Part shown: positions 4,580-26,309 of the stretch, in pieces
Position numbering within the stretch: the first letter of the stretch is position 1
Layout of the letters: every line of letters starts with the position of its first letter
DNA from: Betaproteobacteria bacterium
Lineage (GTDB): Bacteria; Pseudomonadota; Gammaproteobacteria; Burkholderiales; SG8-39
Reading direction: 5' to 3'
DNA length: 34,307 nucleotides
NCBI GenBank assembly: GCA_016177575.1
Contig: JACOVA010000053.1
Coordinates: forward strand, 1-34,307
The notes under the pieces: generated by a model
Databases searched by the model: none
What the model was told of the DNA's origin: nothing
What the model saw: the letters and a program-made list of their open reading frames with translations, nothing else
Position numbers and translations under genes: made by a program

Positions 4580-6397
4580 GTGCGCCGGACATTCTCGGAA
4601 GTGCTGCAGGCGCGCCGCGCGCTGCTGCAAGGCGCGCTGGCGGTGCCGGCGCTCGCTGCGCTGCCCGCCTGCGCAACGCGGCCGGCGGGCGTGAGCCCGG
4701 TGATCGGCTTTGCGCCGATCGCCGCCTCGCGCGAGGACGCGCTGCGCGTGCCGCCCGGCTACGAGGCAAGCGTGCTGTTTCGCTGGGGCGACCCGGTGGG
4801 CGTGCCGGGTGCGATGCCGGCGTTTCGCATGGACGCGTCGAACAGCGCCGCCGAGCAGGCGGTCCAGGCCGGAATGCACCACGACGGCATGCATTTCTAC
4901 CCGCTGCCGCCCGGCTCGGGGCGCTCGGACCACGGCTTGCTCGCGCTCAACCACGAGTACGCGGATGTGCGCCTGATGCACACGGACGAGCAGAACACCT
5001 GGAGCGCCGAGAAGGTCATGAAATCCCAGCACGCAGTCGGGGTTTCGGTCATCGAAGTCCGGTCCCGGGACGGCCGATGGCAAGTCGTCCGCCCCTCGAA
5101 GTACGCGCGGCGCGCGCACGCGCGCACGCCCTGTCGCGTCGCCGGCCCCGCCGCGGGACACGCGCTGCTGCGCACCGAGGCCGATCCCGCGGGACGCACG
5201 GTGCTCGGCACCTTCGGCGGCTGCGCGCATGGCTGGACGCCCTGGGGCACCTACCTGAGCTGCGAGGAGAATTTCCAGTCCATGTTCGTCGATCGCGGCG
5301 CGCTGCCGCCCGAACGGCGCCGCTTCGGCTTCTCCGCCGCCGGGCGCGGCTACCGCTGGCACGAGCACGACGAGCGCTTCGACGCCGCGCGCCATCCCAA
5401 CGAAACGAACCGCTTCGGCTGGGTGGTCGAGATCGATCCCTACGACCCCTCCTGGGCGCCGGTGAAGCGCACCGCGCTCGGCCGCATGAAGCACGAAGGC
5501 GCGGCCTGCTCGGTCGGCGCGGACGGCCGGCTCGCCATCTACATGGGCGACGACCAGGCTTTCGAGCACGTGTACAAGTTCGTCACCGCGCGGCCGTGGA
5601 ATGCGCGCGACCGCGCCGCCAACCGCGACCTGCTCGATGCGGGAACGCTCTATGCGGCGCGCTTCAACGCCGATGGGACGGGCGACTGGCTGCCGCTCGC
5701 CGGCGGCGACCAGGGGGAGATCGTGGTGAAGGCGCGCTTCGCGGCCGACGCCGCGGGCGCGACCCGGATGGACCGCCCGGAATGGATCGTGCCGCACCCG
5801 GTGACGCGCGCGGTGTACTGCGCCTGCACCAACAATGCGGCGCGCGGCGCCGGCAAGAACGAGGGGCCCAACCCGGCCAACCGCAGGCCGAACAACGTCA
5901 TGGGCCACATCCTGCGCTGGCGCGAGGCCGGCGACGATCCTGCAGCGACGAGCTTCCGCTGGGAGCTGTTCGCAGAGGCGGGCGACCCGGCGCGGCCCGA
6001 GCCGCACAAGAAGGGCAACATCAGCGGCGACATCTTCGGCAGCCCGGACGGGCTGTGGATCGACTCGATGGGCACGCTCTGGGTGCAGACCGATATGAGC
6101 GGGGGATTGATGAACCAGGGAGACCACGCCAATTTCGGCAACAACCAGATGCTGGCCTGCGACCCGGCGACGCGCGTCTACCGGCGCTTCCTCACCGGCC
6201 CCTCGGGCTGCGAGATCACGGGCTTCCACACCACGCCCGACAATCGCACGGCGTTCGTCAACATCCAGCATCCGGGCGAGGGCTGGCAGACGAGCCCGCG
6301 CCAGGTCTCCAACTGGCCCGACTACGACCCGGGCGGCCGGCCGCGCTCGGCGACGGTGGTGATCCGCAGGAAGGACGGCGGCATCATCGGGACGTGA
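4580..6397 (+). CDS. PhoX-family (DUF839) exported phosphatase, putative
   Basis: This 605-residue protein belongs to the PhoX family, Ca/Fe-dependent phosphomonoesterases exported by the Tat system. Family landmarks are NHEYAD, FGGCAHGWTPWGTYLSCEENF, KHEGAACSVGADGRLAIYMGDD, TNNAARGAGKNEGPNPANRRPNNVMGH (written here only as landmarks), SPDGLWIDSMGTLWVQTD and CEITGFHTTPDNRTAFVNIQHPGE. The N-terminus has ARRALLQGALAVPALA, a twin-arginine-like motif with a hydrophobic core, followed by LPAC, which could be a lipobox. It may therefore be a Tat substrate and perhaps a lipoprotein. It starts with GTG behind a strong ribosome-binding site. Its 3' end overlaps the convergent putA end by 14 bp. Not every DUF839 protein is proven to be a phosphatase, so the substrate is inferred. 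Confidence 0.85.
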   Translation: MRRTFSEVLQARRALLQGALAVPALAALPACATRPAGVSPVIGFAPIAASREDALRVPPGYEASVLFRWGDPVGVPGAMPAFRMDASNSAAEQAVQAGMHHDGMHFYPLPPGSGRSDHGLLALNHEYADVRLMHTDEQNTWSAEKVMKSQHAVGVSVIEVRSRDGRWQVVRPSKYARRAHARTPCRVAGPAAGHALLRTEADPAGRTVLGTFGGCAHGWTPWGTYLSCEENFQSMFVDRGALPPERRRFGFSAAGRGYRWHEHDERFDAARHPNETNRFGWVVEIDPYDPSWAPVKRTALGRMKHEGAACSVGADGRLAIYMGDDQAFEHVYKFVTARPWNARDRAANRDLLDAGTLYAARFNADGTGDWLPLAGGDQGEIVVKARFAADAAGATRMDRPEWIVPHPVTRAVYCACTNNAARGAGKNEGPNPANRRPNNVMGHILRWREAGDDPAATSFRWELFAEAGDPARPEPHKKGNISGDIFGSPDGLWIDSMGTLWVQTDMSGGLMNQGDHANFGNNQMLACDPATRVYRRFLTGPSGCEITGFHTTPDNRTAFVNIQHPGEGWQTSPRQVSNWPDYDPGGRPRSATVVIRRKDGGIIGT

Positions 6398-21831: not shown

Positions 21832-22434
21832 ATGAAAAAACACCTCATCACCGGTCTGCTGATCTGGATCCCGCTCGTCATCACGATCTGGGTGCTCAAG
21901 CTGGTCGTCGACACGCTCGACCAGATCCTGCTGCTGCTGCCGCCGGAATTCAGGACCGAGAACTGGCTCGGCTTTCACGTTCCCGGCATGGGCGTGGTGA
22001 TGACCGCGGTAATCGTCTTCCTTACCGGCATCTTCGCCACCAACTTCTTCGGCGCGCGGCTGGTCGAGTTGTGGCACGAGGTGCTGCACCGCATTCCGGT
22101 GGTGCGTTCGATCTACTCGAGCGTGAAGCAGATCTCCGACACGCTGTTCTCCTCCAGCGGCCAGGCGTTCCGCAAGGCGCTGCTGGTGCAGTGGCCGCGC
22201 GAGGGCATGTGGACCATCGCCTTCCTCACCGGCACGCCCGGCGGCACCGTCGCCGAGCACGTCAAGGGCGACTACCTGAGCGTCTACGTGCCGACCACGC
22301 CGAACCCGACCGGCGGCTACTTCGTGATCGTGGCGCGCAAGGACGTGATCGAGCTCGACATGAGCGTCGATGCGGCCATGAAATACGTCATCTCGATGGG
22401 CGTCGCGCCGCCGAACGGCAGGAACGGCAAGTGA
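21832..22434 (+). CDS. DUF502 family membrane protein
   Basis: This 200-residue inner-membrane protein has two N-terminal spans: [26 protein letters not shown] (about 4-30) and [22 protein letters not shown] (about 53-75). The DUF502 body reads [59 protein letters not shown] and MKYVISMGV. Its function is unknown; members lie near translation or lipid genes. The ATG at 21832 comes 11 nt after a terminator, so expression needs readthrough or a promoter I cannot place. Its TGA overlaps the aspS GTG in a GTGA junction, so the two are probably translationally coupled. Confidence 0.92.
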
Positions 22435-24209
22435 GCCTGCGCAGCCATTACTGCGGCGAGCTCTCCGCAGCGCTGGTCGGCAAGACCGTGACGCTCGCCG
22501 GCTGGACGCACCGCCGCCGCGACCACGGCGGGGTGATCTTCATCGACCTGCGCGACCGCGAGGGCCTGGCGCAGGTGGTGTGCGACCCGGACCGGCCGGA
22601 GGCGTTCCGCGTCGCCGAGCAGGCGCGCGGCGAATACGTCCTCAAAGTGACCGGAGCGGTGCGCCGCCGTCCCGAGGGCACCGTCAACCCGGAGCTCGCC
22701 TCGGGCGAGGTCGAGGTGCTGGCGCACGCGGTCGAGGTGCTCAACGCTTCGGCGCCGCCGCCGTTCCAGCTCGACGACGACAATCTGTCCGAGAACACGC
22801 GCCTCACCTACCGGGTGCTCGATCTGCGCCGCGAGCCGATGCAGAGGAACCTGCGGCTGCGCTACCGGGTGGCGATGGCGGTGCGCCGCTATCTCGATGC
22901 GCAGGGCTTTCTCGACATCGAGACGCCGATGCTGACGCGCTCGACTCCGGAGGGCGCGCGCGACTACCTCGTGCCCTCGCGGGTGCATCCGGGGGAGTTC
23001 TTCGCGCTGCCGCAGTCGCCGCAGCTGTTCAAGCAGCTGCTGATGGTGGCGGGCTTCGACCGCTACTACCAGATCGTGCGCTGCTTCCGCGACGAGGACC
23101 TGCGCGCCGACCGCCAGCCGGAGTTCACGCAGATCGACGTCGAGACCTCCTTCCTCGACGAGAACGAGATCCAGCGGCTGATGGAAGGGCTCATGCGCTC
23201 GGTGTTCCAGGAAGTGCTCGGCGTCGCGCTCGCCGAGCCGTTTGCGCGCCTGAGCTACACCGAGGCGCTCGCGCGCTACGGCTCGGACAAGCCCGACCTG
23301 CGCGTCGCGCTCGAGCTCACCGAGCTCACCGAGCTGATGAAATCGGTCGAGTTCAAGGTATTCCGCGCCGCCGCGGAAATGCCCGGCGGCCGCGTCGCGG
23401 CGCTGCGGCTGCCGGGGGGCGAGCTCACGCGCAAGGAAATCGACGACTACACGCAGTTCGTCGCCATCTACGGCGCCAAGGGGCTCGCCTACATTAAGGT
23501 GAACGACCCGGGCAGGGGTGCCGAGGGGCTGCAGTCGCCGATCGTCAAGTTCCTGCCCGCGCCCGTTCTGGGCGAGATCCTCTCCCGCACCAAGGCACAG
23601 GCGGGGGACCTGATCTTCTTCGGCGCCGACAAGGCGAAGATCGTCAACGACGCGCTCGGCGCGCTGCGCGCCAGGCTCGGCCACGACCGCGGCCTGGTGG
23701 CGCAGGGCTGGCGGCCGCTGTGGGTGGTGGACTTTCCGATGTTCGAATGGGACGAGGAGGAAAAGCGCTGGGCGGCGATGCACCACCCGTTCACCAGCCC
23801 CAAGGACGGCCACGAGGACCTGCTCGCAGCCGATCCCGGCCGGGCGCTCTCCAAGGGCTACGACATGGTGCTGAACGGCTGGGAGATCGGCGGCGGCTCG
23901 GTGCGCATCCACCGCGCCGAGGTGCAGTCCAAGGTGTTCGCGGCGCTTGGCATCTCGGCGCAGGAGGCGCGCCGGAAATTCGGCTTCCTGCTCGACAACC
24001 TGCAATACGGCGCGCCGCCGCACGGCGGCATCGCCTTCGGTCTCGACCGCATCGTCGCGCTGATGGCCGGTACCGAATCGATCCGCGACGTGATCGCGTT
24101 CCCGAAGACGCAGCGCGCGCAATGCCTGCTCACCCGGGCCCCCAGCCCCGTGGACGAGAAGCAGCTGCGCGAGCTGGGGCTACGGCTGAGGGAGCCGCCG
24201 AAGGCGTGA
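22431..24209 (+). CDS. aspS: Aspartyl-tRNA synthetase, probably non-discriminating type
   Basis: This class II synthetase charges tRNA-Asp with aspartate. The 592-residue, bacterial-type enzyme starts at a GTG at 22431 that overlaps the DUF502 stop and gives [18 protein letters not shown]. The anticodon-binding OB fold covers about 1-105. The catalytic domain contains [70 protein letters not shown] (motif 2) and [12 protein letters not shown] (motif 3), with the bacterial GAD insertion between. His32 (RRDHGG) and Gly83 (RPEGTVN) match the P. aeruginosa enzyme, which also charges tRNA-Asn; discriminating enzymes such as E. coli have Leu and Lys. It would then need GatCAB to make Asn-tRNA. Confidence 0.97.
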
Positions 24210-24261
24210 AGAGAGGAGAATGCGGTTCAACCGGGTTCACATGGGATCAAGGGAGCAACCT

Positions 24262-24501
24262 ATGGCCAAGCGTTTGCAGGACGCCGATCGCGCCCCGCTG
24301 TGGAAGCAAGCGGACGGGGCCCCGATCTCGTGTCTGGAGAAAATCAAGGTGCTGAATGAGAACTATGAGGAACTGCGCCAGATCGCCCAGGATGCGCTGG
24401 AGGATGCGGTGCTCATGGGCTGCAGCGAAGCACAGGTTCGGGAGGCATTGCATCAACTGGTCGACGAACTGGTCAGCACCTACCGCGATTCCGCGGCTTG
24501 A
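24262..24501 (+). CDS. Small conserved helical protein next to aspS, function unknown
   Basis: The best start is the ATG at 24262, which has AGGGAG 7 nt upstream, giving 79 residues; two upstream in-frame ATGs (24220, 24241) lack ribosome sites. The centre, EKIKVLNENYEELRQIAQDALEDAVLMGCSEAQVREALHQLVDELV, is predicted helical and looks like a conserved betaproteobacterial small protein. I cannot attach a function. No signal peptide or membrane segment is present, so it should be cytoplasmic. It lies 52 bp after aspS and just before the RNase gene. Confidence 0.72.
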   Translation: MAKRLQDADRAPLWKQADGAPISCLEKIKVLNENYEELRQIAQDALEDAVLMGCSEAQVREALHQLVDELVSTYRDSAA

Positions 24502-24526
24502 ACTTGCTTGATGTGACCGTTGGAGC

Positions 24527-24895
24527 GTGGATCGAAGGTCCCTGCAAAGGGTGACGCGCCTTCTCCCGGTCGCCTGGCTCTCGCTCGCGCTTGCGGCCCA
24601 GGCGTTTGCTGCTTCTGCAATCGGCGACATCATGGCCTCGGCGCTGCCGCCCGAGGCGCGCGCGACGATCGCGCTCATCCGCAAGGGCGGGCCGTTTCCG
24701 TACCAGAAGGACGGCGCCGCGTTCGGCAATCGCGAGAGGATCCTGCCGCGGCGCGAGCGCGGCTGGTACCGCGAGTACACGGTGCCGACCCCGGGCGCGC
24801 GCGACCGGGGCGCGCGCCGCATCGTCGCCGGCCGCGATGGTACGCTCTACTACACCGAGGATCACTACCGCAGCTTCAAGCGCATCCGCGAATAG
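24527..24895 (+). CDS. Secreted barnase-like (N1/T1 family) ribonuclease
   Basis: This 122-residue protein begins with a hydrophobic signal segment (RLLPVAWLSLALAAQAFA). The rest resembles barnase and other microbial guanyl-specific RNases: IRKGGPFPYQKDGAAFGNRERILPRR, then WYREYTVPTPG, with the likely general-base Glu, then GARRIVAGRDGTLYYTEDHYRSFKRI, with the catalytic Arg region and the final His in D-H-Y. The mature enzyme would cleave RNA after export, or threaten the cell if left inside. The GTG at 24527 is the outermost start; a second GTG at 24551 gives a more compact signal peptide, and neither has an ideal ribosome site. The stop abuts the ATG of the barstar-like gene, exactly the pairing seen in barnase/barstar systems. 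Confidence 0.85.
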   Translation: MDRRSLQRVTRLLPVAWLSLALAAQAFAASAIGDIMASALPPEARATIALIRKGGPFPYQKDGAAFGNRERILPRRERGWYREYTVPTPGARDRGARRIVAGRDGTLYYTEDHYRSFKRIRE

Positions 24896-25321
24896 ATGGG
24901 CAAGCTCCTGCAGAGACTGAGCGATGCATCGCGCTCCGGCGTCTACCGTGCGCCGCGCGCCGACGACATCCTCGATGCGGTGCGCGGCAGCGCGCTGCGG
25001 GTGGTGCGCGTCGGCCTTGAAGGCGTTTCTTCGAAGGAGCTTGTGCTTGAGCGCATCGCACGTGCGCTCGCGTTTCCCGATTGGTTCGGCGGCAATTGGG
25101 ACGCCCTCGAGGATTGCCTCACCGACCTGTCGTGGCTCGAGGCCGATGGCCACGTGCTGATTTTCGAGGACGGAGCGGCGATCCCGGCCGACGAGCGCGG
25201 GGTGCTCGAGGATGTTCTCGCTTCGGCGGCGGCCTACTGGGCCGAACGCAGGCACCCCTTCATCGCCGCTTTCGTCGGCGGCGGCTCGCACCTGGCCGAG
25301 CTCTACCGCAGCAGGAAGTGA
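24896..25321 (+). CDS. Barstar-like ribonuclease inhibitor
   Basis: The 141-residue cytoplasmic protein carries the barstar fold: ALRVVRVGLEGVSSKELVLERIARALAFPDWFGGNWDALEDCLTDLSW. In barstar, the Asp residues of the NLDALWDCL helix plug the RNase active site; here the helix reads NWDALEDCL. A later acidic segment, FEDGAAIPADERGVLEDVL, is where barstar has another contact Glu. About 40 extra N-terminal residues (MGKLLQRLSDASRSGVYRAP) precede the fold, an extension common in the proteobacterial members. It starts directly after the RNase stop (TAG-ATG). Its own TGA overlaps the nudB GTG. It probably protects the cytoplasm from the neighbouring RNase. Confidence 0.9.
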   Translation: MGKLLQRLSDASRSGVYRAPRADDILDAVRGSALRVVRVGLEGVSSKELVLERIARALAFPDWFGGNWDALEDCLTDLSWLEADGHVLIFEDGAAIPADERGVLEDVLASAAAYWAERRHPFIAAFVGGGSHLAELYRSRK

Positions 25322-25761
25322 GACCGAAGCTCCCCGTTTCGGTGCTCGTCGTGGTGCACACGAGGGAGCTGGAGGTGCTGCTGCTCGAGCGCGCGATGCG
25401 GCCCGGCTTCTGGCAGTCGGTCACCGGCTCTATCGATCACCCGGGCGAACCGCTGGCCGATGCGGCGCGGCGCGAGCTGCGCGAGGAAACCGGCGTCGCG
25501 GCACGGCCGCAGGACCTGGAGCGCTGGCCGCTGGTCTACACCTTCGAGATCTATCGGCAGTGGCGCGGCCGCTTTGCGCCCGGAACGACCCATAATACCG
25601 AGCACGTGTTCAGCCTCGAGCTCGACGGCAGGATCGGCGTGACACTGGCGCCGCAGGAGCACACGGCGAGCCTCTGGCTGCCGTGGCGCGAGGCGGCGCA
25701 AAGATGCTTCTCATGGTCGAACCGAGACGCGATCCGCATCCTGGGCGAGCGCTCGCGCTGA
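25318..25761 (+). CDS. nudB: Dihydroneopterin triphosphate diphosphatase (Nudix)
   Basis: This 147-residue Nudix hydrolase is predicted to remove pyrophosphate from dihydroneopterin triphosphate in folate synthesis. It has a GTG start at 25318 inside the barstar stop. FWQSVTGSIDHPGEPLADAARRELREETGV (31-60, cited in parts: G37, E44, R52-E53, E56-E57, G59) is the Nudix box with six rather than five residues before the first Glu, a spacing I recall in betaproteobacterial NudB. TFEIYRQWRGRFAPG and THNTEHVFSLEL follow, both NudB hallmarks. The position shortly after aspS is the common place for nudB. The C-terminus WSNRDAIRIL also fits. The next gene starts inside its last 60 bases. Confidence 0.92.
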   Translation: MRPKLPVSVLVVVHTRELEVLLLERAMRPGFWQSVTGSIDHPGEPLADAARRELREETGVAARPQDLERWPLVYTFEIYRQWRGRFAPGTTHNTEHVFSLELDGRIGVTLAPQEHTASLWLPWREAAQRCFSWSNRDAIRILGERSR

Positions 25762-26309
25762 GCCTCGCGCTGCTCGCCGCGCCGGCGGCGGCGAGCGCCG
25801 AGGAGGTCACGGTCGAAGCGACGCGGCGCGACGAGGCGCTCGAGGTGGTGTGCCGGGCATTGCTCGATGCGCCGCACGAGCTGGTCTGGCAGACGCTGAC
25901 CGACTACAACCGCCTCGCCGAGTTCATCCCCGGCATGCGCAGCAGCCGCGTAATCGAGCAGCGCGGCGCCGAGGCCATCGTCGAGCAGTCGGGCGAGGCG
26001 AGGTTCCTGTTCATTTCCTACCCGATCGACGTGACGCTCTCCACGGTGGAGCGGCCGCCGCACGCGATCGAGGCGACGCTGCTGAAGGGCAACCTCAAGC
26101 AGCTGCACGGCATCTACCGCATCGAGCCGCAGCGCGACGGGCGCATCCTGCTCAGCTGGAGCGGCACCGTCGAGGCGGAGTCGATGCCGCCGCTGCTCGG
26201 CGAAATGCTCATGCGCGCGAGCATCGAGGACCAGTTCCGCGGCATGGTGAGCGAGATCGAGCGCCGCGAGGCGCTGCGGCGCGCGCGGCGCCGGGATCCG
26301 GGCCGATGA
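25704..26309 (+). CDS. Exported SRPBCC/polyketide-cyclase-like (START fold) protein
   Basis: About 200 residues. A signal peptide is formed by RRDPHPGRALALSLALLAAPAAASAEE. The rest matches the Coq10/SRPBCC lipid-binding fold: VCRALLDAPHELVWQTLTDYNRLAEFIPGMRSSRVIE, SYPIDVTLSTVERPP, LKGNLKQLHGIYRIEPQ and LLSWSGTVEAESMPPLLGEMLMRASIEDQFRGMVSEIERR. Proteins like this bind a hydrophobic ligand in a cavity; export suggests a periplasmic lipid-handling role, which fits clsB four genes on. Starts at 25704 and 25713 are both possible, both inside nudB. Its TGA overlaps the ATG of the next gene. Confidence 0.85.
   Translation: MLLMVEPRRDPHPGRALALSLALLAAPAAASAEEVTVEATRRDEALEVVCRALLDAPHELVWQTLTDYNRLAEFIPGMRSSRVIEQRGAEAIVEQSGEARFLFISYPIDVTLSTVERPPHAIEATLLKGNLKQLHGIYRIEPQRDGRILLSWSGTVEAESMPPLLGEMLMRASIEDQFRGMVSEIERREALRRARRRDPGR

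Follow-up and report, generated by a model that had tools for sequence, protein, structure and literature searches.

An RNase Sa-type ribonuclease gene paired with a barstar gene at a recurrent aspS–nudB site in Betaproteobacteria

What might a guanyl-specific ribonuclease (RNase) with an export-like start be doing, together with its putative inhibitor, inside an operon of core genes? Although guanyl RNases and barstars serve as textbook models, what they do in nature has seen little testing, particularly in Gram-negative hosts. The question is raised by a 34,307-nucleotide (nt) stretch of betaproteobacterial DNA, called the window here (contig JACOVA010000053.1, assembly GCA_016177575.1), in which the + strand carries, in this order, a DUF502 gene, aspS, a gene for 79 amino acids, the RNase gene, a barstar gene and nudB. 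A first-pass annotation, made from the letters alone, had proposed a barnase-like secreted RNase and a barstar-like inhibitor set in a conserved core operon. Our analysis makes it fairly likely that the two genes form an RNase/inhibitor cassette, composed of an exported RNase of the Sa type and a cytoplasmic barstar, which probably serves constitutive RNA breakdown in the periplasm.

The RNase gene (24527–24895, + strand) runs from GTG 24527 to a TAG at 24893–24895 and encodes 122 amino acids. Its product matches the Pfam family Ribonuclease (PF00545) over profile positions 13–97 of 98, with an E value of 8e-23 and a score of 81 bits, where 24 would pass; NCBIfam returned no family for either the RNase or the barstar. 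Among solved structures, the Streptomyces RNases Sa3, Sa2 and Sa are closest by sequence (E values of 4e-28 to 4e-27), whereas the best chain of the barnase/binase type reaches only about 1e-4. The Glu/Arg/His pattern noted in the first-pass annotation is real, but the enzyme lies nearer to RNase Sa than to barnase. Over the mature domain it shares 47–54% identity, the catalytic residues and the fold with RNases Sa, Sa2 and Sa3. Specifically, residues N68, E70, E83, R94, R98 and H113 align with N39, E41, E54, R65, R69 and H85 of RNase Sa and are identical in all 31 aligned RNases. From the roles in RNase Sa, we take Glu83 and His113 to be the base and acid, Arg94 and Arg98 to hold the phosphate, and Asn68 and Glu70 to read guanine. 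RNase Sa has a C7–C96 disulphide; unlike it, the window RNase is without cysteine and hence has no disulphide.

The N-terminus suggests export. Positions 24527–24610 (+ strand) encode a predicted signal peptide (...LLPVAWLSLALAAQAFA) with a hydrophobic stretch scoring 2.08, in agreement with the signal peptide first proposed; cleavage after AFA would leave a mature RNase of 94 amino acids with an isoelectric point (pI) of 10.4. In a profile search of 250 genomes of the order (the order survey), a hydrophobic, export-like N-terminus is present in 91 of 96 RNases, that of the window included, a rough count for which we used a start-codon rule that gave odd starts for some genes (for example, L110 ‘overlapping’ aspS by 65 nt) and that otherwise served only rough spacing counts. 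Some relatives carry another type of signal. Genome G119 has two RNase genes (L090 and L119), both with a lipoprotein-type N-terminus and one without an adjacent barstar. Among 80 loci, 11 Streptomyces RNase Sa relatives have a lipobox-like signal peptide (L134, L152, L153, L156, L161, L167–L169, L179, L182 and L204), which suggests that these Streptomyces enzymes may be membrane-anchored.

The barstar gene (24896–25321, + strand) begins at ATG 24896, directly after the RNase TAG and in the same frame, and ends with a TGA at 25319–25321. Its last bases form a GTGA that also holds the nudB start, GTG 25318. Both the abutting genes and the overlap had been proposed, and the coordinates confirm them. 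The 141-amino-acid product (pI 5.2) matches the Pfam family Barstar (PF01337; E value of 2.4e-24, 86 bits against a cut-off of 23.4), has an N-terminal extension of about 35 amino acids before the classical fold and shows no export signal on inspection. Its predicted inhibitory helix region, WFGGNWDALEDCL (25082–25120, + strand), includes the NWDALEDCL highlighted in the first-pass annotation, with D69 and D73 as what we take to be barstar D35 and D39. These acidic residues are kept in relatives, with D35 present in 92 of 93 and D or E at position 39 in all 93 barstars that are paired with an RNase.

Structure prediction is consistent with both family assignments. We folded the RNase and barstar as one chain in AlphaFold2, reading the TAG as Gln and supplying 66 additional rows (6 read-through pairs, 30 RNases and 30 barstars). 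This read-through fusion model has a mean predicted local distance difference test score (pLDDT) of 87.7 and a predicted template modelling score (pTM) of 0.71, below which two domains without fixed packing would be expected to fall. Foldseek aligned the modelled RNase with RNase Sa2 (1pyl_A) at a template modelling (TM) score of 0.94 and with 1mgr at 0.91, and the modelled barstar with barstar chains 1b3s_D and 1b2u_D at 0.79–0.80. The predicted barstar has an additional N-terminal helix–strand–helix, and its helix W68–L75 coincides with WDALEDCL. A direct precedent for the pair exists in PDB entry 1ay7, which holds RNase Sa as chain A, matched by the window RNase, and barstar as chain B.

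Also consistent with a true pair is the co-occurrence of the two genes in relatives. PF00545 was found in 95 of the 250 order genomes, at 96 places, and PF01337 in 137. At 94 of the 96 RNase places, a barstar lies on the same strand no more than 1.5 kb downstream, and the two genomes in which an RNase lacks a following barstar (G119 and G053) carry barstars elsewhere. The nearest barstar start is −4 to +12 nt from the RNase stop at 71 of the 94 places and exactly −4 nt at 32, where the nearest possible start was chosen, which favours small gaps. In a second survey, of 98 genomes of the window’s family, the RNase is present in 77 and barstar in 81, and all 13 genomes of the genus, with the window’s own, have the RNase. 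Barstar accompanies 73 of the 78 RNases in that survey. For the other five, the contig ends within the RNase (G258), only 224 bases of contig are left (G252), an N-run falls in the barstar (G329) or the pair is likely split across contigs (G286 and G323). A single RNase gene per genome is the rule, in 94 of 95 positive genomes of the order and 76 of 77 of the family; the window’s assembly, which is 64% complete, gave one match to each profile. Its nearest named relative in the scan is Nitrosomonadales bacterium Bin_11_1 (L129). The same searches in control genomes of Escherichia coli and Bacillus subtilis returned a barstar-family match and no PF00545 match. With the conserved catalytic residues and helix, this pairing bears out the earlier description of an intact-looking RNase/inhibitor pair. 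Two outcomes that the first-pass annotation named as refuting it, an RNase without a profile match and genes that never occur together in relatives, did not arise.

How did such a pair come to stand among core genes? In the window it is preceded by aspS (aspartyl-tRNA synthetase; 22434–24209, + strand, profile match with approximate start) and the 79-amino-acid gene, and followed by nudB (25318–25761, + strand), whose product matches dihydroneopterin triphosphate diphosphatase (NF006961, E value of 8e-56), as the first-pass annotation had it. This setting recurs: aspS lies upstream of the pair at 36 of 95 fetched order loci, with NudB present at 35 of these, NudB occurs without aspS at 6 more, and neither is found within the fetched flanks at 53. 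The assigned RNase start falls −4 to +68 nt from the aspS stop at 30 of the 37 aspS loci, the window being one of the 37. Among the named records with the order aspS–RNase–barstar–nudB are those of Azonexus, Dechloromonas, Zoogloea and Candidatus Nitrotoga, and also Niveibacterium and Aromatoleum, where aspS and the RNase stand some 2 kb apart; records from Burkholderia, Acidovorax and Herbaspirillum have no aspS within 5 kb of the pair.

The junction itself appears to be older than its insert. We examined 80 of the 155 RNase-less order genomes for aspS–nudB adjacency, of which 68 had both genes, and 43 of the 68 carry nudB downstream of aspS, at most 5 kb away and on the same strand (gaps of 20–2346 nt; one of the 43, G144, holds a barstar between them). 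Because aspS and nudB are often neighbours without the RNase, the pair would be an insertion at an old junction, and the proposed conserved core operon stands. A tree of 93 RNase and barstar pairs (L122, whose RNase has an internal stop, and L093 and L119, which have no adjacent barstar, were left out) requires 6 changes of context, where shuffles need about 31, and families mostly cluster. Judged by these sequences, the insertion seems to be old and to have passed down mainly by vertical descent. A phage origin was rejected, since none of 50,697 phage records matches, as was a plasmid origin, since matches occur in 17 of 72,556 plasmid records and none spans 80% of the query. A related RNase stretch, matching 64% of the query at 53% identity, occurs in plasmid records H11–H15 (Enterobacter, Citrobacter and E. 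coli), at a place where no gene is listed.

A possible mode of action is as follows. The RNase would be made as a precursor and sent across the inner membrane by its signal peptide, and the small basic enzyme would cleave RNA behind guanine in the way RNase Sa does. Barstar, translated immediately downstream of the RNase, would remain in the cytoplasm and plug the active site of RNase molecules that fold before export. Expression of both would be tied to that of aspS and nudB, so the RNase would probably be constitutive and cell-associated. In the periplasm it would degrade RNA that strays or comes in and so yield nucleotides, phosphate and nitrogen, a role like that ascribed to RNase I of E. 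coli. We infer from sequence the activity, inhibition, export, periplasmic location and nutritional role, and a constitutive periplasmic RNA-degrading role is our best guess. The type II secretin GspD (TIGR02517) was found over its curated cut-off in none of three congeners that are 95–96% complete, in a search that did not extend to other export routes, and the RNase therefore probably stays in the periplasm in the window’s genus. Hence the export-like signal of the ‘secreted’ RNase is upheld, but a periplasmic location is the more likely one here. A scan limited to sigma-70 found no sigma-70-like promoter and no terminator in 24150–25800. RNase T2, to which E. coli RNase I belongs, occurs in only 16 of the 250 order genomes; replacement of the Sa-type enzyme by RNase T2 was considered and set aside as weakly supported (2 of the 16 T2 genomes have the Sa-type RNase versus 93 of 234 others, Fisher p 0.033), as T2 is confined to few families.

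Several points weigh against this interpretation. The aspS–RNase distance in the window, 317 nt, is the third longest of the 37, after L061 (1361 nt) and L117 (536 nt), and the RNase is less tightly coupled to aspS in the window than at related loci. There is uncertainty over the RNase start, with GGAG just one base upstream of GTG 24527 and an alternative GTG at 24551, so that both the start and the ribosome site are weak. In 25 of the 68 RNase-less genomes, nudB does not lie behind aspS. Across 35 loci (L066 and L082 excluded), distances of AspS and the RNase correlate modestly (Spearman 0.23, p 0.014), and those of AspS and barstar do not correlate (Spearman 0.08, p 0.13). The RNase is not essential, because 155 of the 250 order genomes have no PF00545 match. 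The likeness to RNase I is one of supposed role, not of homology, the pTM of the fusion model is an indirect sign only of an RNase–barstar interface, and the promoter scan covers sigma-70 only.

Other explanations for the pair can be weighed against the same observations. One holds that the RNase leaves the cell and enters others in bacterial competition, with barstar as the immunity protein; Tox-Barnase/Imm-Barstar are established components of polymorphic toxin systems (PMC3482391). Barstar does diverge fast, as immunity proteins often do (mean protein distance over 35 loci of 0.65, the RNase standing at 0.37 and AspS at 0.27), yet the RNase itself is conserved. Rather than a long carrier with a trafficking domain and variable tips, it is a short single-domain protein without a delivery domain. 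No GspD passed the cut-off in the three good congeners, where other delivery systems were not searched for, and the core-operon position, the few changes of context and the phage and plasmid counts given above all argue against a weapon. We regard competition as unlikely. An extracellular scavenging RNase, fully secreted and induced by phosphate starvation as in Bacillus, fits the genomes in which the pair stands elsewhere, since the secretin is present in 32 of these 52, but only 7 of 37 aspS-linked genomes do. For comparison, GspD is present in 107 of the 250 order genomes, including 5 of 6 with a nudB-linked pair and 63 of the 155 without the RNase. The pair has no sigma-70-like promoter of its own within the core operon, which makes separate phosphate control unlikely, although Pho boxes were not searched for; on balance, secretion into the medium seems to us improbable for this locus.

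A further explanation treats the pair as a selfish toxin–antitoxin addiction module, kept because loss of barstar would be harmful while the RNase is present. The losses are indeed one-sided. Barstar without RNase stands behind aspS in six genomes (G143, G336, G338, G265, G295 and G144) and in a seventh at a contig end (G334), and all five unpaired RNases of the family survey have an explanation in one N-run, two contig ends and two probable contig splits. However, a type II toxin acts in its own cytoplasm and is not exported, whereas most of these RNases have an export-like start. The cassette is chromosomal, seldom changes context and has lost its RNase several times, and the enzyme is probably useful, given that its catalytic residues are intact in many families. 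We therefore hold addiction to be decidedly unlikely.

What becomes of barstar where the RNase has been lost? Three of the genomes with a lone barstar at the aspS site (G143, G336 and G338) belong to genus g4 of the window’s family, in which none of 6 genomes has the RNase and 4 have barstar; in the g4 genome G334, the contig ends within the barstar. The other three are G144 (family f12) and G265 and G295, in both of which a C-terminal RNase stub remains. The g4 barstars behind aspS (L222:4920–5291 in G143, L285:4538–4918 in G336 and L284:3142–3513 in G338) are 92–94% identical to each other. In families f31 (G031 and G076) and f8 (G141), an RNase-less barstar lies between the same neighbours as in paired relatives, which in f31 are malic enzyme/PTA and RNA methyltransferase genes; the f8 site is behind a patatin gene. 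A further f8 barstar (G056) shares only the downstream side with paired relatives. The syntenic barstars of these two families, with altered helix, are the open reading frames 4683–5303 at L224 and L231 and 4668–5303 at L209.

The inhibitory helix differs between paired and lone barstars. All four of G31, N33, D35 and D/E39, in what we take to be barstar numbering, are kept in 92 of 93 paired versus 27 of 44 unpaired barstars (Fisher p 5e-9), a test that ignores kinship and in which the 44 mix several subfamilies, being made up of 40 of the 46 unpaired places in order genomes that lack the RNase, plus 4 from the family. Comparisons lineage by lineage are cleaner. Genus g4 has lost all four residues, and its WFGGNWDALEDCL-like segment has become KLSxDWSAFxGGL; D39 is lost from both f8 barstars, one of which also lacks G31, and G31 from those of f31. 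Relative to paired barstars, the helix of the retained ones is on average 42–48% identical in f31 (core 59%), 62–69% in f8 (core 70–71%) and 23% in g4 (core 33–35%). Among paired barstars, the corresponding helix and core identities are 88% and 70% in f31, 88% and 81% in f8, and 92% and 44% in the group of g4. In a barstar tree, the f8 orphans group with the four paired f8 barstars (support 97). Those of g4, along with the barstars of G295 and G265, join a paired barstar from their own family (88–95).

Ratios of non-synonymous to synonymous substitution (dN/dS) are 0.115–0.15 for the g4 barstars versus 0.09–0.10 for AspS, and 0.006–0.03 for those of f31, where two of the three dS values exceed 2 and are saturated. 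By this measure, the retained barstars of g4 and f31 are not decaying and are under purifying selection. We read these patterns as indicating that the helix serves the RNase and that the remainder of barstar may serve something else, at least after RNase loss. That the helix changes once the RNase is gone in turn supports a true RNase/barstar pair. A second, RNase-independent job of barstar, as suggested by g4, f8 and f31 having lost the RNase, changed the helix and kept purifying selection, is a serious possibility that we stop just short of favouring. Orphan immunity as the cause of retention is unlikely where the binding motif is lost, and our search of the open-access literature found nothing linking it with barstar.

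The case for a second job is tempered by several results in addition to the f31 saturation. The helix of the f8 barstar in G141 (69%) is no less conserved than its core (70%) and falls only below the paired f8 helix (88%). In G144, G265 and G295, helix identity is still above that of the core (92% versus 74%, 73% versus 41% and 81% versus 35%), and G295 keeps all four residues, as would be expected if RNase loss were recent. The f8 barstar pair has a dN/dS of 0.19 at a dS of 1.3, and the f31 orphans join the paired barstars of their own family at 1% support, within a 17-row clade supported at 99. If a second job exists, the orphan barstars known from E. coli and B. subtilis, among others, would exemplify a hidden function and not be relics; the control genomes of these two species, with a barstar-family match and no PF00545 match, are of the same kind.

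How does this cassette compare with known systems? Streptomyces offers the nearest likeness, as in most of the relatives fetched there the RNase again has a barstar-like neighbour; the window pair differs in its Gram-negative host, its core operon context and the N-terminal extension of its barstar. With barnase/barstar of Bacillus amyloliquefaciens and balifase/YrdF of Bacillus licheniformis, it shares an exported guanyl RNase and an intracellular barstar, though these Bacillus systems are distant in sequence. The balifase gene is in one operon with that of its inhibitor, an arrangement called unique among the bacilli compared in that study (PMC5021464), whereas adjacency is the rule here. 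With simple barnase–barstar pairs and Tox-Barnase/Imm-Barstar the cassette shares the order of toxin then immunity gene; it differs in having no polymorphic toxin carrier and in its recurrent site between aspS and nudB. The first-pass annotation had called the roles of such pairs little described in betaproteobacteria. The kind was already known, and Zhang et al. 2012 (PMC3482391) list beta-proteobacteria; in narrow searches of open-access articles on barstar in Betaproteobacteria, Burkholderia immunity, antitoxins, and the proteobacterial periplasm and RNases, none of those listed deals by title with this locus. Less usual are the recurrent aspS–nudB site and the lineage-specific retention of barstar, and a specialist might find the latter the surprising part.

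The recurrent, mostly vertically inherited cassette makes the role of such a pair testable in tractable environmental bacteria. The RNase-less lineages with a constrained barstar and an altered binding helix form a natural experiment that shows the surface used for the RNase. They also prompt the question of what a barstar-family protein does when there is no RNase to inhibit.

The 79-amino-acid gene between aspS and the RNase (24262–24501, + strand) is a local insertion outside the cassette. It has no Pfam match over the cut-off and no NCBIfam match, and tblastn at an E value of 1e-3 found nothing like it among the 95 order loci that were fetched. It is present in 15 of the 98 family-survey genomes, its own included, with other copies 49–58% identical, and in 5 of the 14 other carrying genomes, those inspected, it lies beside neither the RNase nor aspS. 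It was therefore rejected as a third part of the cassette. In the neighbouring aspS, the window’s product is 69–70% identical to AspS of three congeners, and the window’s RNase domain 76–82% identical to theirs. A further congener, L299, far outscores the others against the window AspS in tblastn (1032 bits versus 822–857 for L297, L298 and L300–L302), and there may be two kinds of aspS in the window’s genus.
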